64,000 bases of DNA, taken from the NCBI RefSeq assembly GCF_001375495.1, contig NZ_LN831058.1, positions 826,768 to 890,767 on the forward strand, written 5' to 3'. A program made the position numbers and the translations under genes. Below the pieces are notes generated by a model. That model was not told the origin of the DNA, made no database searches, and worked only from the letters and a program-made list of their open reading frames with translations. Origin of the DNA: Flaviflexus massiliensis. Its GTDB lineage: Bacteria; Actinomycetota; Actinomycetes; Actinomycetales; Actinomycetaceae. Shown piece by piece: positions 9,508 to 37,130 of the stretch; the first letter of the stretch is position 1; every line of letters begins with the position of its first letter.

Positions 9508-10214
9508 CTGACCTGGACCAGGCACGCACCCACATGCAGGACATCATCCAGTGGTGGGACATCCTCGGCGACGTCGCCGAAACCGCGACCGGAGTCGTGG
9601 GACACAGGCTCTCCATGACCGGGGTGCACGGTACACCGAAAGACGCCACTGTCACCGCGATCCTACAGATCGACGCTGTCGACACCATCCAGAAAGACGT
9701 GGAGGCGCTCGCGGGCAAGCTTGGGTGGCGTCCCCGCCGTGATGGCGACCCGAAGATTTACATTCTTGGGAACCTCGAATGGGCCGCGTTGAATCTCGCA
9801 CCCATCGAATGGACCGTCCCTATCGATGACCTCCACCGCCGGGTTGGTTCACTGACCGGCCATGCACCACGGCCCACACAGCGCCTCTGTCCACTCTGCG
9901 GAGAGACCCTGAGGATCATCCCACCAGACAGACCCACATGGCACACCGCCTCAGAACGACGCGCAGCCGCGTCAGAACCAGACCGCTTCACCTGTGACGG
10001 CTGCGGGGAAACACGCACGAGCGAAGAAATCGAGACCCTTTTCAGGTGGCGGATTTCGAATGCGGATGCCCAGGTTCTTCCTCGGGAAGCGTCCCGGCTC
10101 CTCGGGATCCCAGAGCAGACGATCTACTCATGGATCAGGCGTGGCCTCCTCGAGCGCACTGGGGAAGCAGTGAGCCTCTCAGACACCGCAACACTACGGA
10201 AGGACCACACATGA
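9504..10214 (+). CDS. Phage protein with zinc ribbon and MerR-like helix-turn-helix (236 aa)
   Basis: Three parts are visible: an N-terminal alpha/beta domain of about 115 residues ending in PIEWTVPIDDL; a zinc ribbon with CPLCGE near residue 131 and CDGCGE near 166; and a C-terminal helix-turn-helix (LPREASRLLGIPEQTIYSWIRRG) of the MerR/excisionase type. This is the build of a DNA-binding regulator or structural adaptor; it is the last large gene of the early block, so late-gene regulation is a reasonable guess. The start overlaps the preceding stop. Confidence 0.75.
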   Translation: MTDLDQARTHMQDIIQWWDILGDVAETATGVVGHRLSMTGVHGTPKDATVTAILQIDAVDTIQKDVEALAGKLGWRPRRDGDPKIYILGNLEWAALNLAPIEWTVPIDDLHRRVGSLTGHAPRPTQRLCPLCGETLRIIPPDRPTWHTASERRAAASEPDRFTCDGCGETRTSEEIETLFRWRISNADAQVLPREASRLLGIPEQTIYSWIRRGLLERTGEAVSLSDTATLRKDHT

Positions 10215-10282
10215 CATTAAAGAGCCAATGGTGCATAATGAAACCAGGGCGGAAGCATACCCAGAGTTCAAAGAAGAGCTGA
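10211..10282 (+). CDS. Possible 23-aa peptide
   Basis: ATG 10211 overlaps the stop of the helix-turn-helix gene (ATGA) and the frame closes after 23 basic codons. It may only serve to couple translation to the 10286 gene 3 nt beyond it. Confidence 0.25.
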   Translation: MTLKSQWCIMKPGRKHTQSSKKS

Positions 10283-10285
10283 GAA

Positions 10286-10501
10286 ATGCCAGATTTTCAA
10301 CTTGAGTCATGGAAAGTACATTCCAAGGTGATCACACGAGTCATGGGTGGCGGTGAGATTCGCCGGAACGTTATTGATGCCGTCTATTTCGTCAATGGCC
10401 AAAGACTCGGGTGTAACAACAAGATCACCGAGCTCCCCATGAACGCAACGCGAAAGCAAGTAGAAGCGGAATTGAAGCAGCACTTAGGAATCGCTGACTG
10501 A
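10286..10501 (+). CDS. Hypothetical phage protein (71 aa)
   Basis: A short alpha/beta protein starting 3 nt after the preceding stop, with AAAGAAGAG as a usable ribosome binding site. No motif is recognised. It ends the early plus-strand run; the next genes are a divergent pair of cargo-like genes. Confidence 0.6.
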   Translation: MPDFQLESWKVHSKVITRVMGGGEIRRNVIDAVYFVNGQRLGCNNKITELPMNATRKQVEAELKQHLGIAD

Positions 10502-10566
10502 GAACACGAGGGTGGAAGCGTCACAAACAGTGAAGATCGCTTCCTCCCTCGCATATGGATACCGGA

Positions 10567-10755
10567 CTAATTCTCCGCCATAGTCTCCTCATTCCTTCGA
10601 CCAAATCTGGGACATTTTGGGTTCCCGCAGACCCAAAACTCCTGCGTAGCTGAGCCGCTACCAGGCTCCTCCATTGAAGCCTCACCAACCAGAACTCGCT
10701 TTAGTCTCATAGGCTTTTTGCATCCTTGACAACGCCTACCCAAAACATTCTCCAT
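10567..10755 (-). CDS. Zinc-ribbon microprotein, minus strand (62 aa)
   Basis: The product has CQGCKKPM near residue 9 and CGNPKCPRFGR near 43, a plausible four-Cys zinc ribbon of the type found in small regulatory or toxin-associated proteins. It runs against the phage genes and is divergent from the lipoprotein gene at 10818, with 62 bp between. Ribosome-binding signal is weak, so the start is uncertain. It could be a lysogeny-expressed accessory gene. Confidence 0.5.
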   Translation of the reverse strand: MENVLGRRCQGCKKPMRLKRVLVGEASMEEPGSGSATQEFWVCGNPKCPRFGRRNEETMAEN

Positions 10756-10817
10756 CCACTCAAAAGCAAACCAATCGAATCAATGTTTGCCTACACGAAA
10801 TTTAATACACTCAGCAC

Positions 10818-11354
10818 ATGAACACTAGAAACCTCACGACTATACTTGGCGCATTAGCCCTCACGCTTTCCGCCTGCAGTGGAGACAGCTCGCCAGACGG
10901 AACCCCTCTCGGTGAACCATACGCAGTCACTTACAACGACACACCGTTCGAAATTACTCTCGACAACATCGAGTGTGGACTGACCGAAGCCACTAAAGAG
11001 ACCCGGACCATCAGCATCGGCGCATCAGGCAGCAGTGACAAGATGGTCGAAGAAACCTTTACTGCTGCTCCCGGCAACCAATACTGCCGATTCGAAGCCA
11101 CCGCCACCAACCTCGGCACTGCTCCCGCATGGGCGCAATACATTCGACAGGCCCAGGTCGACGGGAAGATCTTCGATAACCATGACACGAACGACCTGAA
11201 CGCCGTTACCGACGGGCCGCCGCCTTGGGAACACCTCCAGCCCGGGTCGTCGGCCACCATCACCCAATGGCTCGAACTCCCCGAAGGAGACGTGGAGGCA
11301 CTGATTTATCCCCCCGGGGATGATTCTCAAGCCCACCCCCCCCCCCCCCCATAA
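10818..11354 (+). CDS. Prophage-encoded secreted lipoprotein
   Basis: The N-terminus is a lipoprotein signal peptide (hydrophobic TTILGALALTLSAC with Cys 20 in an LSAC lipobox), followed by a Ser/Asp/Gly linker and a beta-rich domain of about 130 residues that resembles DUF4352-type immunoglobulin-like lipoprotein domains (EITLDNIECGL, CRFEATATNLGTAPAW). TACACT 6 nt before the ATG suggests leaderless transcription. Lipoproteins carried by prophages often block superinfection; that is inference. The reported C-terminus (HPPPPP, residues 173 on) runs into a poly-C tract that looks like a sequence error, so the true end is uncertain. Confidence 0.75.
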   Translation: MNTRNLTTILGALALTLSACSGDSSPDGTPLGEPYAVTYNDTPFEITLDNIECGLTEATKETRTISIGASGSSDKMVEETFTAAPGNQYCRFEATATNLGTAPAWAQYIRQAQVDGKIFDNHDTNDLNAVTDGPPPWEHLQPGSSATITQWLELPEGDVEALIYPPGDDSQAHPPPPP

Positions 11355-11580
11355 CCCCCCCCGGGGGGTTCACCAGCCCCCCCCATACACGAAGCCCGGC
11401 CCCACCCCTCACTTTACCCCCACCCCCCGCTGGTGACACCCCGCCCCGCCCGGGTGGCGGCCCGCGGGGGAGGATTCTCAACCCCCCCCCCCCCTCGTCA
11501 AATACCCCCCCCCGGTGGGTTCCCCACCCCCCTCCATCCACGAGCCCCGGCCCCCCCCATCACTTAACGCCCACCCCAGC
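11322..11580. repeat. Garbled 151-bp-offset duplication with poly-C tracts, probable assembly error
   Basis: GATTCTCAA occurs at 11322 and again at 11473, and what follows each copy can be aligned: poly-C, a CCGG..GGTTC block, an ACGA(G)CCCCGGCCCC block, and TCACTTTA/TCACTTAA. The left copy looks like a C-enriched corruption of the right one. Runs of up to about 15 C, which are not seen elsewhere in this window, and the offset of 151 bp (a common short-read length) point to misassembled low-quality reads rather than biology. Confidence 0.7.
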
Positions 11581-11616
11581 ATGTGAGCACCCCTGCAGTC
11601 CATGAGGAGGCCCGCC

Positions 11617-11928
11617 GTGTCAATGAGCCCCCGCCGGACAAACGGCCGCGCCCAGCAAAACTTCTCACGCATCGTGCTCGCACGAGCGAACGGCCGCTGC
11701 GAAGTCCAAGGCCCAAACTGCCAAGGTCGAGCCGTCGAGGCAGACCACATCATTCCACTCATGGATGGCGGCTCACACGACCCAGAGAACGGCAGGGCAG
11801 TCTGTCGTCCGTGCCACAGAACCTTCACAGACAAACAAATCTTTCAAGCAAAGAATGCGTGGCGACGAAAGCCCATTGCGCATCCCGCAGACACCGCGCC
11901 CCAAGGTCTCTACACTGGGCTGGATTAA
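11617..11928 (+). CDS. HNH endonuclease of the packaging module
   Basis: The HNH core is clear: CEVQGPNCQG, then VEADHIIPLMDGG (the catalytic His with DH), an Asn in DPENGRAVC and CRPCHRTFTDKQ, with two pairs of Cys holding a structural zinc. HNH proteins beside terminase genes take part in cos cleavage in many phages of Gram-positive hosts. AGGAGG (11605-11610) points to GTG 11617 or ATG 11623 as start; ATG 11602 is also in frame but has no ribosome binding site. Confidence 0.85.
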   Translation: MSMSPRRTNGRAQQNFSRIVLARANGRCEVQGPNCQGRAVEADHIIPLMDGGSHDPENGRAVCRPCHRTFTDKQIFQAKNAWRRKPIAHPADTAPQGLYTGLD

Positions 11929-12280
11929 AGGCGTCGGTGTGACAAGCGTGTTTCCCGCTCACTTCCATGACGGACCAGGCATTTTCCTCTCCCGTGACGC
12001 TGCCCACCCCCGATACCCCTCCCCCGCCCCAAGCCCGGCCCTCTAACTGCATAGGGCCTCCCCGGCTGTATATTTTCCGAACCTCTCTCACGCGCGCGAA
12101 GAGAATGGCCCTGAGCGCTCCTGTGTGGCGTCGTGTGGGCCGATCTCATTCTTGGGGTGGGCAACCTACTGCTGGATTTTGCTGGGTTCTTGAATTCGCC
12201 CCTTAATTGGGTTGCCATCTTTTCCGGCTAGTATTCGTTGTTATGTCGCTATTTAACCGTAAACAGGCTAGAATAATGGT
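11929..12280. other. 352-bp gap between HNH and the next gene, likely cos or packaging site
   Basis: No coding support. The first half is very C-rich; the second half holds AT-richer sequence ending in TAGAAT (12269-12274), 6 nt before the next ATG. A packaging initiation site is usually found beside the HNH/terminase genes, so a cos site here is plausible, but I cannot identify cohesive ends by eye. Confidence 0.3.
12269..12274 (+). promoter_or_regulatory. -10 element for leaderless transcription of the 12281 gene
   Basis: TAGAAT sits 6 nt upstream of the ATG at 12281, and no Shine-Dalgarno is present. This spacing puts the transcription start at or next to the start codon, the normal arrangement for leaderless actinobacterial genes. 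No good -35 is visible. Confidence 0.5.
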
Positions 12281-12826
12281 ATGAGAATTTGCGGTCATTG
12301 CGGTAAGTCGATTGCCGGGAAGCGTGCGAACGCGGTCTGGTGCTCCACTTCTTGCCGTGTCATGGGCGCGCGAGCGAGGAAGGCTCTGCCGGCCGAGATG
12401 ACGAGCAGTCCACGGTGGGTCCGGTTCGCGCTGCGTCCCCGTAAGAATGGGAAGCTCGCGAAGGTCCCGATACAGCTGAACGGCCAGAATGCGTCCTCCA
12501 CCAACCCCGCCACCTGGAGCACCTACGAAGCGACGAAAGCTTCGACCGTGGGTGATGGACTCGGTTGGGTTCTCGGTGACGGGATCGGCTGCTTGGATCT
12601 CGATAATTGTTTTGATGAGAACGGCACACTGTCAGATTTTGCGCGCTCGGTGATCGCGGAGCATGAGCAGCAGGTGGTTCTGATTGAACGGTCGCTGTCC
12701 GGACGTGGCGTTCATATTTTCTTGCCGATGGCACCTGGTGCTGGTCGGCGGTCCGAGCGGATTGAAGTTTATCCTCCCGACAGTGGTCGGTTTATTGCGG
12801 TGACAGGAGACAGGCTCCGCATCTAG
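12281..12826 (+). CDS. Solitary prim-pol-like protein with N-terminal zinc finger
   Basis: A 181-aa protein. Residues 4-26 form a zinc finger (CGHCGKSIAGKRANAVWCSTSC). The rest resembles the N-terminal domain of phage/plasmid primases such as the NrS-1 type: PRWVRFALRP, VPIQLNGQNASSTNPATW, GLGWVLGDGIGCLDLDNC (acidic metal-binding residues near 105-110), RSLSGRGVHIFLP and EVYPPDSGRFIAVTGD. No helicase domain follows. Its place between HNH and the terminase, away from the replication block, is odd; it is a second prim-pol-like gene in the same phage. Small stand-alone versions occur in this position in other actinobacterial prophages, but what they do there is not known to me. Confidence 0.75.
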   Translation: MRICGHCGKSIAGKRANAVWCSTSCRVMGARARKALPAEMTSSPRWVRFALRPRKNGKLAKVPIQLNGQNASSTNPATWSTYEATKASTVGDGLGWVLGDGIGCLDLDNCFDENGTLSDFARSVIAEHEQQVVLIERSLSGRGVHIFLPMAPGAGRRSERIEVYPPDSGRFIAVTGDRLRI

Positions 12827-27901: not shown

Positions 27902-30169
27902 ATGGTCCGTCACACGGAACTCTCTGCGGCCCGTCGAGGTGCTCGCAGGAAGCTAGGGGCGCGCCAGCAGGTGCAGCGGTCGAACATGATCACGGCGGGG
28001 TTTGTGGGGCTCGATGGTGAAGACACTGATCGTGCCCTCATTTCAATTGATGAGGTGGATGATCCCGTGTCGGTGATTGCGCCTCCGGTGAAGATCATTC
28101 CCGGCTCGCTCGTGTCGGTCGCAGTAGATCACGCGGGCCGGCCTTCTCGTGTGCTTGGTCCGGCGACAGTCCGGCCGGAAGGACTCGACACCGAGGCACC
28201 CTTACCGCCCGCACAAATCCCGATGGAAGAACTCGCATGGGATGAATTCTCGCCGGAAGATCAGGCGAAACTGGATCAGGCAGTGATCGACCTTGACCAG
28301 GCGAAAACAGACATATCTGAGGCTGAGCAGGCGCTTGAGGATCTTGATCTGGTTGTTTTGCCGAGGCTCCGTGACGATCTAAATGAGTCCATAGGTCGGA
28401 TTGACGAGGCCCGCCAAGACCTTGACACAGCATTCCCGACCGGCCCGTTTGATGTGGGTGCGGAGATTGATGGTGTGCAGACCACGGCGGACGCGGCAAT
28501 GGTCACGGCAAATGGCAAGTCCACTGTCACCTACACATACACCTATACTTCACCTGGACCGACACCGACGGAAGAATTTGGGGCGGGGCGGAAGCCTTTT
28601 GATATTCACAGGAACCAGCTCCAAGCTGACGGAGCTATCGTCGCTGAGTGGGTCTGGGATGGCGCGAAATGGTGGCCGACTACCTTCGGCAATGAAGTCC
28701 TGTCCTCTCTCGACGTGGGCAAGCTGACCGCCGGGACGGCGAGCTTGCAGACCGCTGTCATTCAGAAGCTCGTAGCGCAACTAGCCAGACTGATTGAGGT
28801 GGATGCGGACAAGATCACGACCGGTACCCTCGACGCGGCACGGATCAACACGCTCGAGGTGTGGGCCGAGATAGCGACGCTTGGCAAGATCATCACCAAG
28901 GAACTCATCGCGGCTGGTGCGGTCACAGCAGAATCCCTGAACGTGGTTTTCACCGACCCTGCCACGGGGTTTGGTGTGTCGATCCAGCCAGAAGGATTCA
29001 CCCTCCTCGACGTTGATGGCGCACCCATGGTCACGTTGCGTACCGACATGGCGAATGCTTTCACTGTCGTGAAGGACGGGAAAATGGTCGCCTCAATTTC
29101 ACCAGACGGTGAGGTCGCTGGCAACGTCATCGCGGCGCGTGAAAGTCTGCTCTACCGAGGACGAGAACTCGAATCGTATTTGACCAAGCTTCCACGCGGC
29201 ATGATCGCACATGTCAGGAACACGAGCGACGCGACGGTGGGCACGAGTTCGGCGAGGCTTCTCGCAGTCACGTTCGTGACGCCGGCAGAGCTTCGCAGGA
29301 AAGTCAAAGTGACGTTCCGTGGTCATCCGGGGACATCATCCCCGCGCCTCTTTTTCGAACTACGGCAGTCGGCTGGGACGACCGTGAAAACGACAAACAG
29401 CAAGATGCATGACTGGTATCTGCCAGCGATGCCTCCCGGTAGCTCCCAGTCGTTCGAGTTCTCTCATGTGCGAACCATCGGCGAATGGGGCTGGCCACTC
29501 GATACGGAAATTACTCTTGGCATTTTTGTGCGAGCACTCGATTCGGGGAACACGGCTTTCTTCACATCCGCGAACAATCAGGAGATCTGGGTGGAGGACG
29601 TCGGCGGGAATATCCGTGCGGTGGCGCACACCCCGTGGGTTCCGGTTGGTGGTGGCGGTTCGAGCGGTGGCAACGAGAACGCAACCTATCCGACGGACTA
29701 CGAACGCTCCTGGGACAGCACCGGACACCGCACCTATTCCAGGACGAGTCTCTCGCATGTGCGTGCAGGCTCCTCGCTCGTGCAGGGCGCGATCGCCGGA
29801 AGCAACAGCAGGGGCCATTGGTTCTTCAACGACGCTGCTATCCGATCCGCGCTGGCGGGCGCAACCGTCGAGGGCGGTTTCCTTGTTATCCGGAACCAGC
29901 ACACCTATGCCGGTTCCGGCATGACAGCCGTCGTCCACACACACTCATACAGCAGTGCGCCGTCCAGCTTTGGGACTGTCACTGCATTCACCAGCGTGCA
30001 TGTACCGCGTGGCGAAACCGTCCGCATCCCACTCACCTCAACCGTTTTGAACGGCCTGAAATCCGGGTCCGTGCGGGGCTTCTCCCTCGACCACGGCGGC
30101 GGCTCATCCACCAGCCACTATGGCTACTTCTCGCCCACCGCGACGATCGAATTGAACTACACGAAGTGA
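27902..30169 (+). CDS. Tail fibre / minor tail protein (755 aa)
   Basis: A long fibre-like protein. The N-terminal 100 residues have a basic, beta-rich attachment region; residues 115-180 form a coiled coil (DQAVIDLDQAKTDISEAEQAL); the middle carries repeated ITTGTLDAARINT- and EVWAEIATL-like triple-helix motifs typical for phage fibres (adhesin repeats near 300-370). The C-terminal 200 residues are Gly/Ser/His/Thr-rich (VVHTHSYSSAPSSFGTVTAF), probably the host-recognition tip. It follows the hub gene by 2 nt. The receptor-binding role is inferred. Confidence 0.75.
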   Translation: MVRHTELSAARRGARRKLGARQQVQRSNMITAGFVGLDGEDTDRALISIDEVDDPVSVIAPPVKIIPGSLVSVAVDHAGRPSRVLGPATVRPEGLDTEAPLPPAQIPMEELAWDEFSPEDQAKLDQAVIDLDQAKTDISEAEQALEDLDLVVLPRLRDDLNESIGRIDEARQDLDTAFPTGPFDVGAEIDGVQTTADAAMVTANGKSTVTYTYTYTSPGPTPTEEFGAGRKPFDIHRNQLQADGAIVAEWVWDGAKWWPTTFGNEVLSSLDVGKLTAGTASLQTAVIQKLVAQLARLIEVDADKITTGTLDAARINTLEVWAEIATLGKIITKELIAAGAVTAESLNVVFTDPATGFGVSIQPEGFTLLDVDGAPMVTLRTDMANAFTVVKDGKMVASISPDGEVAGNVIAARESLLYRGRELESYLTKLPRGMIAHVRNTSDATVGTSSARLLAVTFVTPAELRRKVKVTFRGHPGTSSPRLFFELRQSAGTTVKTTNSKMHDWYLPAMPPGSSQSFEFSHVRTIGEWGWPLDTEITLGIFVRALDSGNTAFFTSANNQEIWVEDVGGNIRAVAHTPWVPVGGGGSSGGNENATYPTDYERSWDSTGHRTYSRTSLSHVRAGSSLVQGAIAGSNSRGHWFFNDAAIRSALAGATVEGGFLVIRNQHTYAGSGMTAVVHTHSYSSAPSSFGTVTAFTSVHVPRGETVRIPLTSTVLNGLKSGSVRGFSLDHGGGSSTSHYGYFSPTATIELNYTK

Positions 30170-30177
30170 GGACAACA

Positions 30178-30465
30178 ATGGCCCAAATTATTTATTCGGA
30201 ACTATGGAAAGCGTTCTACCTCGCCGACTCCTCCTCGGTCTTCCCTCTCCTCGTTCGAGGGGCCTGTGCCTACGTCGGAATCGCCTACAGCGAGTCTGTC
30301 CTGCATGCGTGTGCGACAGACCGGGACATCCTCGCCCACCTCGAAATGAGTGAGGAAACAGTCCTCGACGAGGTACTGAAAACGTTAGCGCACGACCCGG
30401 ACGCGGCGCCCATCATGGACCGATTCATCGTGGCAGCCGTCCAAAAATACAAGCAGGGAGAATAG
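30178..30465 (+). CDS. Small tail-tip region protein (95 aa)
   Basis: A helical protein without recognised domain. ATG 30178 lies 8 nt after the fibre stop with GAGGACAAC in front. Its position between two fibre genes suggests a tail or fibre assembly role. Confidence 0.6.
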   Translation: MAQIIYSELWKAFYLADSSSVFPLLVRGACAYVGIAYSESVLHACATDRDILAHLEMSEETVLDEVLKTLAHDPDAAPIMDRFIVAAVQKYKQGE

Positions 30466-30468
30466 ACG

Positions 30469-31170
30469 ATGCCGAAACTCGATATCTTCAAGCGGCTCAT
30501 CCCGAAAGTGGGTACCAGCCCGGCCACATCGGACGGTCCCGCACGGATCGACCACGCCCTCGAGGACCTCTCCCGCACCACACATGCGGTCGTCGAAGTC
30601 GCCAACAGAGCAGAGGCAGACACAATTGCTTCCACGCTCAAAGCTGGGCCAAACCCGTCTGAGGCGTTCCCCTTTGTCGTCTGGCGAAAAGACGAACGCA
30701 CCCTCGACCTCATGGAGTACAACCAGGGCTGGGAGCAGATCGGCGGCCGCCGGCACGGCATGAGCGCGTCCGTTGCACGCCGGACCCAACCAAAAACTGT
30801 GACCGAGCTGCATGTTGAGCAGTTCACGCGCGTATCCAACGGTTGGAACCTGTCGGGTGGGAACTTTGTGGTCCCCACGACCGGTATGTGGCTGATCCGA
30901 ATGTACGGCAACGTCGAAGGAATCACGGCGAGCACGGCGGGTGACCGATTCTTCGCCTACCAAGTGAATGGCGTCACCAAACAGCACTTCGACATCGCAC
31001 GGACCGCCGATGGCGGGATGGACCTCTACCCACTCACAAAGGGTGACGTCGTCAAGTTCGTTGGCTATCACGACACCGGCTCTGACGGGTCATCCTCGGG
31101 TGGCCGGATCATGCGGGCTGAAGTCATCATGGCCCAAATCTCCGACATCTCCTGGACCTCGGTCGGGTGA
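30469..31170 (+). CDS. C1q/TNF-like minor tail protein
   Basis: A 233-aa protein. Residues 1-60 form a helical neck. From about residue 125 the sequence follows the C1q/TNF jelly-roll pattern: FVVPTTGMWLIRMYGN (the common strand pair after F.VP..G.W.I), DRFFAYQVNGV and VVKFVGYHDTGSDGSSSGG, ending in a strand. Such domains form trimers on phage fibres and bind glycans or proteins on the host surface. It is preceded by a small gene 3 nt away and follows the main fibre. Binding target unknown. Confidence 0.7.
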   Translation: MPKLDIFKRLIPKVGTSPATSDGPARIDHALEDLSRTTHAVVEVANRAEADTIASTLKAGPNPSEAFPFVVWRKDERTLDLMEYNQGWEQIGGRRHGMSASVARRTQPKTVTELHVEQFTRVSNGWNLSGGNFVVPTTGMWLIRMYGNVEGITASTAGDRFFAYQVNGVTKQHFDIARTADGGMDLYPLTKGDVVKFVGYHDTGSDGSSSGGRIMRAEVIMAQISDISWTSVG

Positions 31171-31176
31171 TGCTCC

Positions 31177-31554
31177 ATGAAGGACATTTCGAATTGGACC
31201 GCGACATTCCTGGAGCCGGTGGTGATGGTTGCGATCATCGGCGGGCTCGTCGCACTCGTCGGTCATTTTTTGAAGGGCTTCTCGGAGCGCCAGACAGTGA
31301 TCACCACGAACAAGCAAGAGCGCGAAGAGCTCAAGCTTGACGCACTCGTCAGGACTGTGGAGTCAGCGGTCTCTGTGCAGAAGGCATGGGAGACCCGTGC
31401 AGGGAAGCTCGAGGAGCGCGTGGCTCATCTGGAGAAGGAGCAGGCCCGCCAAACAGTTCTGCAAGCTGCTAGTGAAGCCTACATTGCCTCTCTGATTGAC
31501 CATATCAACGATCAGTTACCGCCTCCGCCGCCACCCCGCCCCACGATGGACTAA
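31177..31554 (+). CDS. Membrane-anchored coiled-coil protein of the lysis region (holin-like or DUF2746)
   Basis: A 125-aa protein with one N-terminal membrane segment (FLEPVVMVAIIGGLVALVG, residues about 11-29), a charged coiled coil (ELKLDALVRTVES, KLEERVAHLEKEQ) and a Pro-rich tail (PPPPPPRP). This build is usual for DUF2746-like proteins in actinophage lysis cassettes; a role as second holin or spanin-like factor is inferred. A small terminator (31556-31576) follows. Confidence 0.6.
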   Translation: MKDISNWTATFLEPVVMVAIIGGLVALVGHFLKGFSERQTVITTNKQEREELKLDALVRTVESAVSVQKAWETRAGKLEERVAHLEKEQARQTVLQAASEAYIASLIDHINDQLPPPPPPRPTMD

Positions 31555-31555
31555 G

Positions 31556-31576
31556 CCCGCCACCATGGCGGGTTTT
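31556..31576 (+). terminator. Intrinsic terminator after the coiled-coil membrane gene
   Basis: CCCGCC (31556-31561), loop ACCAT, GGCGGG (31567-31572), then TTTT. It sits between the 31177 gene and the endolysin gene and would partly stop tail transcripts before lysis genes. Confidence 0.65.
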
Positions 31577-31602
31577 CTTATACCCCTGGAAGGAACAAAC
31601 CC

Positions 31603-32535
31603 ATGTCGTATCTCCTTGAAGCCCGTAAACAACGCACCCCGCAATGGAATCGCGCCCGTCGCCACAACAGCGTCCCGTCCGGTGTGTGTGTTATCCACAC
31701 AGCCGAAGGCAACGGCGCGAATAACGTCTTGGACTGGATCTTGACTCGCTCCGACTATGGGTCCTACCACCGGCTCTGTGACGCGACAAGCACGCTGAAG
31801 CTTGCTCCATGGAGTGGTGAGACGTTCCATTGTCGATTCACAAACCCGCACAGTGTCGGCATCTCCGCGGCTGTGAAGGCGGCAGACTGGCCTGCACTCT
31901 ATAAGGCTGGGACAGGGCAGAAGATCATCGACCGTATGGCCATCGAGGCCGCCGACTTCGTGACCTATATGAAGGGGCGTGGTGTCACAGTTCCCGTGAA
32001 ACGGATATCTCGTGCAGAGGCACTCGCCAAGAAGCCGGGATTCCTCGCGCATGAGGATACTGATCCTGGCAGGCGTACCGATCCTGGCAAGGACTTCGAC
32101 TGGGACTATTTCTTTGAACGGATTCGGCATCATCTCGGACAAACCACGGCGACCACGCCCGCGCCCGCGCCGGTGGTGTCGACGGGTCTCACGCTCCCGA
32201 AGAAGGGCGAACCGTACTACGGCCGGGTGATCGACGGACAACCTGGACCCTACACCTATGCGGCTCTCCAGCAGTTCCTCGCGGACCGTCAATATTACGA
32301 CCGTGTCGTCGACGGTGATCCCGGACCCTACACGTGGCGGGGCATGCAACAGTTCCTGGCGGACCGGAACTTCTACGACCGTGTCATCGACGGCCAGCCC
32401 GGCCATTACACCTATGCCGGCCTGCAACGTTTCCTCCAAGCCAACGGCTGGTATAAGCGCGTCATCGACGGCCAGCCCGGCGTTTACACGTGGCGTGCCC
32501 TCCAGGACTATCTCGCCCGACGAACCACGAAATGA
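31603..32535 (+). CDS. Endolysin: N-acetylmuramoyl-L-alanine amidase with four 26-aa wall-binding repeats
   Basis: A 310-aa lysin. Residues 20-180 form an Amidase_2 domain: zinc ligands in VCVIHTAEG (His near 32), SYHRLCD, and AHEDTDPGRRTDPGKDFDW (His near 150 with the PGR-TDPG motif). After an Ala/Pro linker come four tandem 26-residue units (32215-32526), each with the pattern YY.RVIDGQPGPYTY..LQ.FL, which probably bind cell-wall glycan. The unit is much shorter than standard peptidoglycan-binding domains. GGAAGGAACAAACCC precedes ATG 31603; the holin gene overlaps the stop. Confidence 0.9.
   Translation: MSYLLEARKQRTPQWNRARRHNSVPSGVCVIHTAEGNGANNVLDWILTRSDYGSYHRLCDATSTLKLAPWSGETFHCRFTNPHSVGISAAVKAADWPALYKAGTGQKIIDRMAIEAADFVTYMKGRGVTVPVKRISRAEALAKKPGFLAHEDTDPGRRTDPGKDFDWDYFFERIRHHLGQTTATTPAPAPVVSTGLTLPKKGEPYYGRVIDGQPGPYTYAALQQFLADRQYYDRVVDGDPGPYTWRGMQQFLADRNFYDRVIDGQPGHYTYAGLQRFLQANGWYKRVIDGQPGVYTWRALQDYLARRTTK
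32215..32526 (+). repeat. Four tandem 78-bp repeats in the endolysin gene
   Basis: Units at 32215-32292, 32293-32370, 32371-32448 and 32449-32526, each encoding 26 residues around V(I/V)DG(Q/D)PGxYT. The DNA copies differ at many third positions, so they are old or under selection to stay distinct. Confidence 0.9.
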
Positions 32536-32750
32536 GCACCACAATGAAACAAATCCTCACGCCCGAAGTGCGTACCTGGCTCTACGGAGTCATCTCCGCA
32601 GCACTCGCGATCATCGCCGCCTATGGGCTCATCTCAGCTGACGAGGTGCCGCTCTGGTTAACCCTTGCGGCTGCACTCCTTGGCCTGACTGGCTCGACCG
32701 TGGCCACCGCGTATAGGCCGACCAAGCACCCTGATCCTGACCTAGAATGA
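32532..32750 (+). CDS. Holin (72 aa, two membrane segments)
   Basis: A short protein overlapping the endolysin stop (ATGA). It has two hydrophobic segments (WLYGVISAALAIIAAYGLI and VPLWLTLAAALLGLTGS) with a charged turn between them and a polar C-terminus, as expected for a class II holin that opens the membrane for the endolysin. It ends before a strong terminator. Confidence 0.82.
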   Translation: MSTTMKQILTPEVRTWLYGVISAALAIIAAYGLISADEVPLWLTLAAALLGLTGSTVATAYRPTKHPDPDLE

Positions 32751-32768
32751 TCATTGGCCACACCGATG

Positions 32769-32804
32769 GCGCCCCATCCTCCATGTGAGGGTGGGGCGCT
32801 TTTT
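32769..32804 (+). terminator. Strong intrinsic terminator after the holin
   Basis: GCGCCCCATCCT (32769-32780) pairs with AGGGTGGGGCGC (32788-32799) and is followed by TTTTT (32800-32804). It ends the late phage transcript and separates it from the convergent restriction-modification operon. Confidence 0.85.
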
Positions 32805-32823
32805 CCATGTCTGGAGCGGATTT

Positions 32824-33015
32824 TCATCGTCGGCCTCGCAATTCGACGGTGAGACCGAGAGCCCCCACAATCTTTTCCAGGGTGGCGATCGAGATTGCCA
32901 CTCCGCACTCGGCCCGCGCCACGGTCGGGCGGGAGACTCCCGCTCTTTCAGCGAGCTCGACCTGAGTGAGGCCCTGCTCGTCTCGCGCCCTGCGGATCTG
33001 CTGCCCAATGCTCAT
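32824..33015 (-). CDS. XRE-family regulator of the restriction-modification operon
   Basis: A 63-aa Cro/C1-type helix-turn-helix protein: GQQIRRARDEQGLTQVELAE, RAGVSRPTVARAECG, ISIATLEKIVGALGLTVEL, close to HipB-like and antitoxin regulators. It is the third gene of the minus-strand operon, 3 nt after the specificity gene. It is the natural candidate to bind the perfect palindrome at the operon promoter (35377-35400) and adjust enzyme levels, as C-proteins do in other systems; this link is inferred. Confidence 0.85.
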   Translation of the reverse strand: MSIGQQIRRARDEQGLTQVELAERAGVSRPTVARAECGVAISIATLEKIVGALGLTVELRGRR

Positions 33016-33018
33016 CGG

Positions 33019-33534
33019 TCAAGCCCCGGCAAGTGCCTGGAGGCTGTCGAGAGCGGCTTCACGCTCTGCTATGACACCACGCATCGTCTGCTCCATGCAG
33101 TCCCAGTCAGGGCATCCATCCGGTGTAACTGGCAGTCGGATGACGGCAGCCGCCATATCAGTCATCTTCCACTTGTCGATATAGGCGTACTCAGACCCTG
33201 CGTTCTCAATCATGGGGGCGATGAAAAGCATGCTCTCCATTGACATCGGAGACTTAGGGTAGAGCACGTTGACGTCATCGGTAGCCCAGAACTTCTGGGG
33301 TTGATAGAAGGTCGTACCTACCGGGCCATTGTAACAAACCGTTAGGACTCCTGCGGGATGCAGCTTGTCATCATTACCGATGTAGTGGGTGATGCCATTG
33401 TTGAACTGCGAAGCACCAACGTAAGGGATATCGCCTTCGCTTCGCGCAAGCGAGGTGAGCCGGGAGCCTTTCACAAGGGTAAACAGGTCGTCTACCCGGA
33501 ACTCACCCCATCCGCTCGTGTCAATTTCTTTCAT
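33019..33534 (-). CDS. hsdS: Half-size restriction-modification specificity (S) subunit
   Basis: A 171-aa protein with one target-recognition domain only: GWGEFRVDDLFTLVKGSRLT, the DIPYVGASQFNNGITHYI block typical of HsdS/BcgIB domains, and a C-terminal helix (CMEQTMRGVIAEREAALDSLQAL) for dimerisation. Full S subunits are about twice as long with two recognition domains, so this one probably works as a dimer and reads a symmetric bipartite site. It overlaps the methyltransferase/nuclease gene by ATGA. Confidence 0.88.
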   Translation of the reverse strand: MKEIDTSGWGEFRVDDLFTLVKGSRLTSLARSEGDIPYVGASQFNNGITHYIGNDDKLHPAGVLTVCYNGPVGTTFYQPQKFWATDDVNVLYPKSPMSMESMLFIAPMIENAGSEYAYIDKWKMTDMAAAVIRLPVTPDGCPDWDCMEQTMRGVIAEREAALDSLQALAGA

Positions 33535-35360
33535 TTCCTCACCTCTAGAACTACAGAATCATCCGTCTCGGTAACGCTCGCCGAGTACGTCGCGAGCCTG
33601 CCGATCTTCTCGCGCATCGCCCTGGCGTCGATCCCACGCCGGAACATTGCGTAGTCCATCGCCGTGCGGGCAAGATCCTCTTCAGTGAGCACGAACGGCT
33701 TCACGGGGGCCTGCCAGCTGAGATTCACCGCGGGGTCGATCCACTGGCCGGTGCCGTACTGGCTGTCGTATTTCCGCTCGATCGCGTCGACCCAGTAGTC
33801 CTCAATCGCAGGCCAGCGACCGTGCACGTCGTGACGCCCCTTGTTCTTGACCGTCACGAGGCCGTCTTCTGCTATGTTGACCGCGAAGAACTCCTTACCG
33901 TCTTGGGGTTTCCCAGCCTCGAACACGAAGACGCTCGTCGTAACGCCGACACCGAAGAACAGGTTCTCCGGGAGCTTCACGACCTTCAGCAGACGATGGT
34001 GCCGCAGGATGCGGGACATCTGGGTGTTGCTGGTCTTCTCCAACTTCTTGTCGGGCAGGATGAAGCCGCAGAGGGTACCGCGCTCGACGCTGTCGAGAAC
34101 GTTCTCGACGATCTTCATGCAGCCGAACTTGTTCTCGTACGGCGGGTTCATCAGAACTTTCGTCGCACGAGTGGTCTTCATCCAGTTGCTGGCGCTCTCG
34201 GTTCGGGCGTCCATGTGGGCGAGGTTTGTCCTGCCGTCCTTGTGGATGAGCATGTTCGCGCAGGCGAGGGCGTAGATCTCACGGTCGAACTCGATGCCGA
34301 AGAGCTGCTTCGCCTTGATCTGCTTGGCCTTCATCGTGTTCACGCCACCGGCCTCGCGGATCATGTTGCTCATCGCCTTGACGAGGAACGAGCCGGAGCC
34401 CGCGCAGGCGTCGAGCACACGGTCGTCCTTGTCGACGCCGAGCAGCCGGTACATGAAGCCGGTGATGTGGTCGGGCGTGAAGACCTGCCCCGACTCGCTC
34501 TTCTTCTTGTAGCGGTTGAACTCGTTGAAGAAGATCGCCATCACGTCCTCACCGTTCCAAGCGCTGGAGTTAATGAGGCCCGAGATCTCCGTCACCCAGT
34601 CAATAAAGTCGCCGATAAGGTTCGTTAGTCGCGCAACGGCAGCCGGGTTGTCGTCATCTGTCGAAACGTTCATCTTGATCTCGGAGTATACGTCTGCCAA
34701 AAGCTGCAGCTTTGAGTTCTGCTGGAGATCGTTCCTGATCGCTTTATTCAGGGCACTCAGGATGCCGTTGTGGAACTCGCTGTAGTCCATGCCTCGAACG
34801 AGGATCGCGTCGTATCGGCGAGCGACGAGGGCACACGCCGTGAAGATCATGCGGTGATAGAGGTTCTTGATCCCAAAGTCCCCGTGCAGCGAGTTGTTGA
34901 TCCGCATCGTGAGCTCGTAGATGCGGTCCTTGTCGATCGGGCGCTCGGTCAGCTTCTCGAAGTAGAACTCCTTGGGCTGCAGCTCGTCCGGCACGTCGAG
35001 AGGCTTGCCGTTCACGTACGCGCGCGTGCGCTCTCCATCGAAGACGATGCCGATCACCAGGTCATACCGAGTACGCACCGTGGCGCAGTACTTCTCAACC
35101 TGAGCACGCAGCGCAGGTGAGCCGATCGGCATCGCATCCGGAGCCTTCGTCTCAAGCACCAGCGCCACGGTGCCGCGATCTACAGGCAGGTACCAGCCGT
35201 CCGGCTTATTCGATGCCCCCTCGCCAGTGAAACCGAGCTGATTCATCGTCGTGATCTGGCCAACGCCACTCTTCGCAACGCTGGAAGGCACATCAGAGAG
35301 GCCGAGTATCGAGTCAGCCAGGCTTCGGACCTGATCCTCTGTTTCTATTGCGTTCGCCAT
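33531..35360 (-). CDS. BcgI-like fused restriction nuclease and N6-adenine methyltransferase
   Basis: A 609-aa protein. Around residue 65-75 the N-terminal domain has VALVLETKAPD, the E-x-K of a PD-(D/E)XK nuclease, after GEGASNKPDGWYL which supplies the Asp. A helical linker follows. The methyltransferase core has motif I VLDACAGSGSFLV (near 315) and catalytic motif IV VLMNPPYENKFG (near 402), as in type I M subunits. Fusion of nuclease and methylase on one chain with a separate S subunit is the type IIB BcgI arrangement, which cuts on both sides of its site. ATG 35360 follows AAGGAGGG; upstream codons cross the promoter and are not used. It likely defends the lysogen. Confidence 0.88.
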   Translation of the reverse strand: MANAIETEDQVRSLADSILGLSDVPSSVAKSGVGQITTMNQLGFTGEGASNKPDGWYLPVDRGTVALVLETKAPDAMPIGSPALRAQVEKYCATVRTRYDLVIGIVFDGERTRAYVNGKPLDVPDELQPKEFYFEKLTERPIDKDRIYELTMRINNSLHGDFGIKNLYHRMIFTACALVARRYDAILVRGMDYSEFHNGILSALNKAIRNDLQQNSKLQLLADVYSEIKMNVSTDDDNPAAVARLTNLIGDFIDWVTEISGLINSSAWNGEDVMAIFFNEFNRYKKKSESGQVFTPDHITGFMYRLLGVDKDDRVLDACAGSGSFLVKAMSNMIREAGGVNTMKAKQIKAKQLFGIEFDREIYALACANMLIHKDGRTNLAHMDARTESASNWMKTTRATKVLMNPPYENKFGCMKIVENVLDSVERGTLCGFILPDKKLEKTSNTQMSRILRHHRLLKVVKLPENLFFGVGVTTSVFVFEAGKPQDGKEFFAVNIAEDGLVTVKNKGRHDVHGRWPAIEDYWVDAIERKYDSQYGTGQWIDPAVNLSWQAPVKPFVLTEEDLARTAMDYAMFRRGIDARAMREKIGRLATYSASVTETDDSVVLEVRK

Positions 35361-35376
35361 GCGATCCCTCCTTAGC

Positions 35377-35400
35377 GCTTGTATCAAATATGATACAAGC
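35377..35400. promoter_or_regulatory. Perfect 24-bp palindrome at the restriction-modification promoter
   Basis: GCTTGTATCA (35377-35386), spacer AATA, TGATACAAGC (35391-35400). It lies 16 bp upstream of the nuclease-methylase start codon, overlapping any promoter there. It is the likely operator for the XRE protein encoded at the end of the same operon. Confidence 0.75.
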
Positions 35401-35538
35401 TTTCGTCGACGAACCGACATGCACACGCCACGTCGCCTGAAGCTTGTGTGTGATGTCTGGACACCTGAAAACAGGTATTCAAGGCTACCGTCTAGAAACA
35501 GTTGTGGAGGTGGGGTTTAGTGCTCGACGGTGAGCTGT

Positions 35539-35739
35539 ATGGATAAAGAAACACTCATGACTTACTGGCAGATTATGGGTCCAGCTCGGGCTGATGAGGA
35601 TCGCCGGGACCTCCACGAGATGGAACCCTCACCTCAAGTTCTCGAGCTCCGGGCATGGGCAAACGAAGCACTACAAGCACACCACGAGTGGCGGGCGCAG
35701 CACCGACCCGACCTCGATATAGAGGCCCGCGAGGTCTAA
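35539..35739 (+). CDS. Small protein convergent with the integrase (66 aa)
   Basis: An acidic/basic, Trp/His-containing small protein. ATG 35539 or GTG 35530 could start it; the ribosome site is weak. The end overlaps the integrase stop by 4 nt. Position beside integrase suggests an excisionase or unrelated small gene, but no helix-turn-helix is visible. Low confidence. Confidence 0.4.
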   Translation: MDKETLMTYWQIMGPARADEDRRDLHEMEPSPQVLELRAWANEALQAHHEWRAQHRPDLDIEAREV

Positions 35740-36857
35740 GACCCGAGTCTTGCTGCGAGCTCCGCGTCCCGCTGCTTACTCGAGTGCTGATAAATCTGGA
35801 CAGCTTCGACGGAGGAGTGACCGGCACGGAACTTTAGATCAGCGAGGGTGGCTCCTTGCCTGCCGTAGTGGGTGAGCCCAATATGGCGAAGGTCGTGGAA
35901 CCTGAGCCGGGGGAGACCAGCGGCTTCAGTCGCAAGATTGAGGGCCCGCAGTAGGACCTTGTCGGACACGATCCCATCCAACCGGTCACGGTTATGAAAC
36001 AAGAGCGAACCGGGTGCCGGCGGAACATACACCTCAAGATGATGAAGCAGAACCTCATGCATGACCGCTGGCACCGAGATCTCACGCCTACCCGCCTCCG
36101 ACTTGGGCGGCCCCACAGTCAACGCACCCGTCGGCCCACGCTTCACCGCCTTCGACACCGACACTCGCAACGGAGCGAGCTTAACGTCCTCACGAGTAAG
36201 GGCCCGCACCTCACTAATCCGCAACTGACACCACACACCCAACGTCACCGCAGCCTTGTATTTCCCCTCCGTCGCATCAATCAACCGTGCGATCTGCTCA
36301 ACCTCCAACATCGGAAAATCTGTCCGCGCTCGCGGTTTCGCCATCGCACCCTTCACCTGCACAGGATTCGACGCGAGCAGGCCGGCATCGACTGCTGCAC
36401 CCATGCAGGCCGATAGGGAGCGGATCGTGTTCTGCGCTGACACGATCGACAGCGACTCTTGAAGTGTTACGTAGAGGTCCCGGCAATCCTCAGCTGTGAG
36501 TTCGCCGAGTTCGATGTGGCCGAGGGTGGGGAGGATCCGTCGGCGGAAAATCGACCCATAGCCACGCAGGGAGTTGGGGGAGCGGCCGGCTTTCTCCATC
36601 TGTCCATACCAATGCTCGTACCATTCCTCGATGGTGGCGGTTTCGTCGAGGCTGAGAGTGGGGCGCTTGATCGTGCCCCTGGGTGGCTCCCATGTCCCGT
36701 CGAGGATGCTTGCGTGGATCTTCGTCAGGTCCTGTCCTACGAGCCTGCGTGAGGGGCGGAGGGGAGTGTAGTAGTCCTTGCCGCGTCGCCGATACCGGCC
36801 CCGGTAGCGTCCGCTTTGGGTGGTGAGAATGCTGCCAAAATCTGATCGTCGTGCCAT
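35736..36857 (-). CDS. int: Tyrosine recombinase, phage integrase
   Basis: A 373-aa integrase. The N-terminal part has an arm-binding type region and the core-binding domain (EWYEHWYGQMEKAGRSPNSL). The catalytic domain shows the first Arg in CQLRISEVRALT (near 212), the H-x-x-R box RFHDLRHIGLTHYG (near 317), GHSSVEAVQ with the second His, and the Tyr nucleophile in IYQHSS (near 352). It inserts the phage at the tRNA-Ser gene next door; three GTACCCCT copies upstream of its start may be its arm sites. The start ATG 36857 opens the conserved MARRSDFGS. Confidence 0.93.
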   Translation of the reverse strand: MARRSDFGSILTTQSGRYRGRYRRRGKDYYTPLRPSRRLVGQDLTKIHASILDGTWEPPRGTIKRPTLSLDETATIEEWYEHWYGQMEKAGRSPNSLRGYGSIFRRRILPTLGHIELGELTAEDCRDLYVTLQESLSIVSAQNTIRSLSACMGAAVDAGLLASNPVQVKGAMAKPRARTDFPMLEVEQIARLIDATEGKYKAAVTLGVWCQLRISEVRALTREDVKLAPLRVSVSKAVKRGPTGALTVGPPKSEAGRREISVPAVMHEVLLHHLEVYVPPAPGSLLFHNRDRLDGIVSDKVLLRALNLATEAAGLPRLRFHDLRHIGLTHYGRQGATLADLKFRAGHSSVEAVQIYQHSSKQRDAELAARLGS

Positions 36858-36866
36858 GTTGAATTC

Positions 36867-36909
36867 GTACCCCTTCGTTTACCGAAAAAGTACCCCTATT
36901 CGTACCCCT
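36867..36909. repeat. Three GTACCCCT direct repeats beside int (attachment arm sites?)
   Basis: Copies at 36867-36874, 36890-36897 and 36902-36909, spaced 23 and 12 bp, lie between the integrase start and the tRNA. Arm-type integrase binding sites look like this. Confidence 0.6.
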
Positions 36910-37040: not shown

Positions 37041-37046
37041 TACTGC

Positions 37047-37130
37047 GGAGGATGGGGGATTCGAACCCCCGAGGGCTTGCACCCAACCCGCTTTCCAAGC
37101 GAGCGCCATAGGCCACTAGGCGAATCCTCC
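37047..37130 (-). tRNA. tRNA-Ser (anticodon GGA), prophage attachment site
   Basis: Read on the minus strand it starts GGAGGAT and ends ATCCTCC (7-bp acceptor stem), has the D arm, the anticodon stem CTCGC/GCGGG around the loop TTGGAAA (anticodon GGA, Ser), a long variable arm (GTTGGGTGCAAGCCC) that fits a serine tRNA, and a T arm with GGTTCGAATCC. Its 3' end points to the integrase, so the phage core site probably lies in its 3' half and integration restores the gene. Confidence 0.95.

Follow-up and report, generated by a model that had tools for sequence, protein, structure and literature searches.

BcgI, the archetypal Type IIB restriction-modification (R-M) enzyme, is described as carrying a nuclease and a γ-class methyltransferase in one chain (RM), together with a separate specificity subunit (S) whose two target recognition domains (TRDs) read CGAN6TGC (PMC4081073; this and the other papers are cited for excerpts). 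Here, we describe a related locus in a 64,000-nucleotide (nt) stretch of Flaviflexus massiliensis DNA (contig NZ_LN831058.1, positions 826,768 to 890,767 of the forward strand), hereafter the window, in which three minus-strand genes of a prophage encode an RM chain with the BcgI layout, an S with one TRD (half-S), and a small XRE-family regulator. At a probability of about 0.7 for the explanation as a whole, we read this operon as a self-contained BcgI-like R-M cargo of the prophage, whose enzyme would consist of RM and two half-S chains, recognize a symmetric split site, and be repressed by its own XRE protein.

Several described enzymes offer a comparison. HpyUM032XIII of H. pylori UM032 likewise has a BcgI-like fused RM, which with the one-TRD half-S1 alone methylates the palindrome CYAN7TRG, joining of S1 and S2 giving CYAN7TTC (PMC4450513); its half-S, however, is ascribed to a poly-G frameshift and the S2 half is still there, whereas the half-S in the window is a stable gene without an S2, has an XRE gene on its 3' side, and lies in a prophage. 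HaeIV reportedly binds as a homodimer in which a single specificity domain is present twice; it recognizes the symmetric split site GAYN5RTC and cuts on both sides (PMC4081073, PMC3874165), but it is a single-chain enzyme, comparable to those relatives of our locus that have half-S fused to RM, such as L003. Type 1 1/2 methyltransferases (M.AhdI) share the separate one-TRD S, in the composition 2M+2S, but are methylases without a fused nuclease (PMC3874165), and EcoDXXI truncations are treated alongside HaeIV and M.AhdI (PMC4081073, PMC3874165). Engineered half-HsdS and M-half-S fusions are reported to dimerize and to be active (PMC6158711), a one-TRD Type I S has been tied to a palindromic motif (PMC3936762), and AlfI, FalI, and BplI have palindromic sites (PMC1892151). 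An earlier note on this DNA had presented a half-length S dimerizing on a symmetric site as a departure from standard BcgI. The one-TRD S stands and such a dimer would be expected of it, but the arrangement is less unusual than supposed, because HpyUM032XIII, HaeIV, and M.AhdI are reported to work in this way.

Carriage by a temperate phage also has a precedent in the BcgI-like Sau42I system of Staphylococcus phage phi-42 (PMC6532042), although the annotated bcgIB of a related phage is full length (1002 nt) and the RM is only ~29% identical over half the protein. Small co-encoded regulators acting on R-M promoters are known as C proteins in Type II and RptR in Type I systems (PMC12255303); C genes typically lie upstream of R, whereas the XRE gene of the window is last in its operon. 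None of the literature matches listed dealt with a BcgI-like system in which a stable natural half-S goes with a 3' XRE gene (titles and abstract starts, with subscription papers and specificity databases outside reach). Neither the half-S mechanism nor carriage of BcgI-like systems by phages is new; what is new, as this search weakly suggests, is the stable natural half-S combined with a 3' XRE gene and co-varying operators.

The RM chain

The RM gene (33531-35360, minus strand) encodes 609 amino acids (aa) from an ATG start preceded by the Shine-Dalgarno sequence AAGGAGG in a leader read from the sequence (35361-35376, minus strand); the open reading frame (ORF) as listed has an earlier GTG start, on the far side of the dyad described below. 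The BcgI-like assignment made in the earlier note was backed by both homology and structure models. RM matched the Pfam family N6_Mtase (1e-27) and was the sole N6_Mtase protein found in the genome, and with the motifs D317-x3-G321 and NPPY (405-408), a γ-class N6-adenine methylase is, as judged from sequence, part of the chain. An N-terminal PD-(D/E)XK motif (P53 D54 and E70-x-K72) points to a nuclease in the same chain, firmly by motif and more weakly by fold. P53, D54, E70, K72, D317, G321, N405, P406, and P407 were invariant in 65/65 aligned rows, with Y or F at 408. The top three PADLOC models for RM were Type IIG fusions, with matches starting at residue 151 or later.

The AlphaFold model of RM (predicted local distance difference test score [pLDDT] 83.4) aligned over residues 145-555 with HsdM 2okc (Z 29.4, root-mean-square deviation [rmsd] 3.8, 364 aligned), over residues 1-547 with DrdV 7lo5 (Z 19.8, rmsd 6.8, 461 aligned), and over residues 2-531 with the Type IIB enzyme BsaXI 8w2p (Z 24.1); this last alignment had an rmsd of 17.1 over 468 residues, and the domains are therefore placed differently. 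Two results tell against the nuclease: the N-terminal 145 aa by themselves matched no Pfam family, and with a profile of the 65 RM rows, matches to solved structures began only at profile position 194, in the methylase part. As the N terminus has no such match, the case for the nuclease is made by the invariant motif, by where the domain lies in the chain, and by a few fold rows.

It is somewhat unlikely that the system mainly methylates and so serves not antiphage defense but protection of the prophage itself, epigenetic regulation, or post-segregational maintenance. BcgI reportedly has strong maintenance methylase activity and requires two sites for cleavage (PMC4081073), and repression by XRE would hold enzyme levels low; conservation of the nuclease motif in every aligned row, however, argues for selection on cutting.

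The half-length specificity subunit and its relatives

The half-S gene (33019-33534, minus strand) overlaps RM by 4 nt (ATGA) and encodes 171 aa. Its product matched Methylase_S (PF01420, 7.4e-13) and aligned with PDLC03591, a Type II S model of 341 aa, over only one half of it (positions 178-325). The structure model (pLDDT 93.7) contained one TRD (about residues 9-135) and one C-terminal helix (144-169), and it matched half of the HsdS chains 1ydx (Z 14.6, rmsd 4.1, 158 aligned) and 1yf2 (Z 13.9, rmsd 3.4, 162 aligned); a sequence search of solved structures with half-S gave no match. Esub1 (PDB 8vsq/8vsr), a single-TRD S-like chain, also turned up in the fold search. As modeled, the protein is a separate S subunit of the HsdS fold, and with 171 aa and one predicted domain it is not the two-TRD S of archetypal BcgI. 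Since S has one domain and no second TRD was found, we file the system as a half-S variant and not as standard BcgI.

We also looked for the missing half. A hidden Markov model search on the operon's strand found no second TRD remnant 3' of S, and no partner S was found elsewhere in the genome (98.6% complete) at E up to 0.001, the sole PF01420 match being this S. The earlier note had allowed that the subunit might prove to be a frameshifted full-length gene; we reject a frameshift or assembly error, because L002, the locus of Arthrobacter NIO-1057, has the same three genes as the window with an equally clean half-S, and because no further TRD comes after S. In having one TRD, a C-terminal helix, and no S partner that could be found, the subunit matches the apparent make-up of a half-S homodimeric R-M system of the HpyUM032XIII or M.AhdI type.

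To place this architecture, we compared related loci. The RM query returned 68 loci in genome contigs (one genome per species, 84,980 species) and four in viral contigs, one of them weak. RM is rare, since at E up to 1e-60 it matched 3/213 genomes of the family (its own included), 3/396 sampled in the order (the same three), and 1/394 in the class (its own). We checked 73 loci (the window, L002-L072, and L088) for S architecture and could classify 68: the half-S is separate in 13 and fused to RM in 23, and S has two TRDs in 32; among these last, L006 and L039 were frameshifted and L088 was interrupted by an insertion sequence. Left unclassified were L012, with a partial S, three loci at contig ends (L048, L063, and L066), and L070, which is the prophage of the window itself. 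Assignments were unsure for L040 and L062, where the frames look broken near the RM-S junction, for L053, where a second RM, accompanied by a two-TRD S, lies nearby, and for L025 and L068, where the contig ends soon past the S stop. In L088 (genome G211, 10186-12340), from the same family, transposase-like ORFs interrupt the second TRD of the two-TRD S and leave an accidental half-S-like gene.

On the RM tree of all 68 rows (quick method, long branches flagged), at least 15 changes were required with three states and at least 12 between one and two TRDs, and well-supported branches alone forced 9 for the two-TRD label. After 15 rows were dropped (long branches, broken S, and one contig-edge row), the 53-row tree required at least 9 and at least 7 changes, respectively, with 7 forced by well-supported branches. 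Because S architecture switches at least 7 to 12 times, RM appears to tolerate linked or unlinked TRDs. The window and L002 were sisters on both trees (Shimodaira-Hasegawa-like approximate likelihood ratio test 91 at 68 rows and 96 at 53 rows), within a clade of 10 whose RM chains are 76-87% identical to that of the window and which holds seven two-TRD S, two separate half-S, and one fused half-S.

Corynebacterium oculi (L008) has a two-TRD S whose second TRD was 73% identical (93/127; core 54/63) to the TRD of the window, whereas the helices agreed at only 6/24 positions; between the window and L002, 85/127 TRD and 18/25 helix positions were identical. The assignment of the helix as CR1-like or CR2-like was inconsistent between relatives. 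TRD and helix thus seem to have been reshuffled, and the target site of L008 is predicted to contain the half-site of the window. A bolder proposal, which we hold to be unlikely, is that the RM family is a combinatorial R-M platform on which half-S chains from co-resident prophages or incoming elements heterodimerize with a shared RM to give a third, asymmetric specificity. Such a platform would explain why S has switched repeatedly between one and two TRDs on the RM tree and why the window TRD resembles half of the C. oculi S, and XRE-operator pairs would then set separate regulatory groups.

In our preferred reading, half-S probably works as a pair. Two RM chains would join two half-S chains in a complex with the geometry of BcgI (RM)2S, in which antiparallel pairing of the half-S helices would create a symmetric S2 that holds the two RM. 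The enzyme would read a symmetric split site, X-N(about 5-8)-X'. As in BcgI, it would place one N6-methyladenine per half-site at hemimethylated sites, acting as a maintenance methylase, and would cut unmodified sites on both sides. Against this reading, the RM and half-S structure models are monomers only, and half-S may be a loss derivative, as S has two TRDs in 7/10 clade loci (in one of the seven it is frameshifted). It is distinctly unlikely that half-S does not dimerize and that one RM with one half-S acts in the manner of MmeI, on a single half-site methylated in one strand, pairing transiently for cleavage. The single-TRD enzymes MmeI and BpuSI share the fold, and monomer binding by MmeI-type enzymes has been called plausible (PMC3874165). 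Half-S nevertheless keeps the C-terminal helix, with the noted similarity to that of L002, a half-site of 3-4 bp would be too short for a safe enzyme, and the half-S of HpyUM032XIII reads a palindrome.

The XRE protein and the dyad upstream of RM

The third gene (32824-33015, minus strand) starts 3 nt past the S stop and encodes a 63-aa protein matching HTH_3 (PF01381, 5.4e-14) and the PADLOC model Control_protein (2.5e-7). It is a small XRE helix-turn-helix protein, as R-M C proteins are, but its gene is third in the operon and 3' of S, not upstream of the endonuclease. Directly upstream of the RM leader lies the dyad GCTTGTATCA-AATA-TGATACAAGC (35377-35400, no strand), ending 16 nt before the RM start codon, which we infer to be the XRE operator. 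The perfect palindrome of the earlier note is there, as an exact dyad of 24 nt with arms of 10 and a spacer of 4, and its pairing with an XRE regulator gained the backing of homology and comparative footprints. At up to three mismatches, the dyad occurred once in the window and in 0/100 dinucleotide shuffles of it, and it beat 200/200 shuffles of the 96-nt stretch around the RM start. The 20-nt core had one exact occurrence in the 2.63-Mb host genome; at up to three mismatches it was found in 2 places, against 3 hits per strand for a reversed control pattern, so that only the exact match is telling.

We then asked whether dyad and regulator vary together. XRE lies directly 3' of S in 6/10 loci of the clade (the window, L002, L003, L004, L005, and L071). 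The dyad core of L002 was identical to that of the window at 19/20 positions, compared with 21/100 in the upstream and 3/18 in the downstream flank (ungapped), and the dyad is by this comparison a conserved footprint. L003, L004, and L005 have a different dyad, TGATT(G/A)-N14-CAATCA, agreeing at 11-12 of 12 half-site positions, 5-7 of 14 spacer positions, and 22-30 of 80 positions of the upstream flank. Dyad type tracks XRE type in 5/5 XRE-bearing loci with upstream sequence (L071 has none), and the four XRE-less loci (L006, L007, L008, and L050) have neither type. Across 841 kb of loci, the first type was found only in the window, its copy L070, and L002, and the second in L003, L004, and L005 and once elsewhere (L043). 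As a dimer, XRE would occupy the dyad and repress all three genes, which would keep RM in check in the lysogen, and the operon is probably self-regulating.

A number of observations pull the other way. The dyad patterns compared were written after the sequences had been seen, the dyad of L002 has one mismatch, and those of L002, L003, L004, and L005 are singly not significant against shuffles. XRE is absent from four of the ten clade loci, of which L050 (Schaalia georgiae) has an unrelated dyad before RM that beats 200/200 shuffles; L013, also without this XRE, has its own dyad at 0.01 against shuffles. No sigma-70-like promoter was found in 32600-35800. HTH_3 matched 8/36 small ORFs scanned on the upstream side of RM (3 viral ORFs, and 33 of the 47 from genomes) and 5/22 ORFs scanned downstream. 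The exact dyad pattern also occurs in at least 120 viral-contig loci (39 distinct contexts, with 89 matches sharing the spacer pair GCAC/GTGC); at the 120 listed, one had an XRE-like ORF within 1.5 kb and none an S domain near the pattern. As most such matches are without an XRE-like ORF or S, the pattern alone is not diagnostic, and on the same counts we rejected the dyad as a widespread phage operator.

We give little credence to XRE being a leftover antitoxin-like or phage regulator, with the dyad serving another protein. It has HipB/Y4mF-like similarity, but at 44.2 bits for TIGR03070 it falls below the cut-off of 71.65, and its operon partners are RM and S instead of a HipA-type toxin. 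Absence of XRE from four clade loci and the strong dyad of L050 would fit such a leftover; the agreement of dyad type with XRE type, the absence of both types from XRE-less loci, and the single exact dyad in the genome speak against it. A separate repressor candidate in the prophage (L086:15625-16320, whose top match is a family of unknown function, with repressor families ranking below), together with that unique dyad, makes XRE unlikely as the prophage's own repressor.

Upstream of RM in L050, L006, and L007, GTGTCCG/CGGACAC-like elements were seen by eye, with a full dyad and 14-nt spacer in L050. In the Corynebacterium loci L007 (8910-9473) and L013 (8509-9081), a serine recombinase of the resolvase family (Pfam-checked for L007, and by similar sequence for L013) lies directly 3' of S, in the slot that XRE occupies in the window.

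Prophage setting and persistence of the operon

Carriage in a prophage, as the earlier note had proposed, held up on the integrase, an att repeat at a tRNA, and phage structural and lysis genes. The 3' end of a tRNA-Ser(GGA) (37045-37130, minus strand; ARAGORN) is the presumed attR; 15 bp of it (at 37045) are repeated at window coordinate -6808, in the neighboring stretch of the same contig, and the prophage, ~43.9 kb between these repeats, extends left of the window. The genes and sites expected of an intact temperate prophage are present (integrase, att repeat at the tRNA, terminase, portal, tail, and lysis genes), and 9/10 scanned prophage proteins matched repressor, anti-repressor, exonuclease, helicase/primase, terminase, portal, scaffold, tape measure, or endolysin families. 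The sole match of the protein at 27902-30169 was a family of unknown function. The IMG/VR record of the prophage stops at the integrase start (36857), short of the att site at 37045. ARAGORN also called a tRNA-Met (30704-30799) antisense within a phage ORF (30469-31170), probably falsely.

The operon adjoins the integrase end and converges on the lysis genes, namely the endolysin (31603-32535, plus strand; phrog_12609, 3e-28) and the holin (32490-32750, plus strand; PF23809, phrog_6116), with a terminator-like hairpin between them and the operon (32768-32800, plus strand; 5 such hairpins in the region scanned against 2.1 expected). On its other side lies the tyrosine integrase (35736-36857, minus strand; PF00589, phrog_1). 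The three overlapping or adjacent genes claimed between holin and integrase are all present, with one refinement, an additional 69-aa plus-strand ORF (35530-35739) between RM and the integrase. Here, the prophage would shield its host and itself against foreign DNA without the mark.

Sister phages were sought by DNA around the cargo slot (30000-36900), with none among 50,697 phage records, and queries of viral contigs with integrase and S returned this prophage alone. The three-gene order was found in L071, a 36-kb viral contig in which RM, S, and XRE converge on the gene of an amidase endolysin, after which comes a minor tail gene; its S has two TRDs, and we regard it as an apparently like cargo slot with a different S. 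A DUF3800 protein (L071:3312-4115) lies there between the operon and the lysis genes. A profile scan of viral contigs gave 12 loci, including our prophage and a fragment. The other 10 comprised four loci with a two-TRD S (L096, L098, L099, and L090, the last being the contig of L071), two with a single half-S (L091 and L092), one with a fused half-S (L097, the contig of L072), and three loci (L093, L094, and L095) with S split into two ORFs, like the natural split of HpyUM032XIII. Of the phage records, 57 matched RM, none over 80% of its length; 75 plasmid records matched RM, one over at least 80% of it (Lactobacillus iners, 50.5%).

Phage R-M genes are often lost. It is very unlikely that the operon is decaying or inactive cargo, with S a truncated two-TRD gene and restriction abolished: such loss, the two-TRD S in most of the clade, and the broken S genes of L006, L039, and L088 would fit, but none of the three ORFs is broken and their coupling is tight, S has no TRD remnant behind it, the catalytic residues are conserved, and L002 has the same architecture at an RM synonymous divergence (dS) of ~2.1 and a ratio of nonsynonymous to synonymous divergence (dN/dS) of 0.039. 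Between the window and L002, identity was 87% for RM, about 65-66% for S, and 61% for XRE. Half-S was 61% identical in nucleotides compared with 65% in amino acids, with synonymous sites saturated and no dN/dS ratio obtained; XRE had a dN/dS of 0.148 by one method and none by the other. Since L002 keeps the three genes at saturated synonymous divergence, with no TRD remnant and no other Methylase_S found, half-S is, on this comparative evidence, not a product of recent decay.

Together, these loci form a natural series in which nearly the same RM chain (76-87% identity) is combined with a half-S, either free or fused, or with an S of two TRDs; the series offers a direct test of the evolution of Type I-like and Type IIB enzymes by TRD fusion. 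It would also be a compact source of symmetric specificities, and the locus suggests a simple 3'-encoded repressor circuit, with a defined operator, for phage-borne R-M systems.

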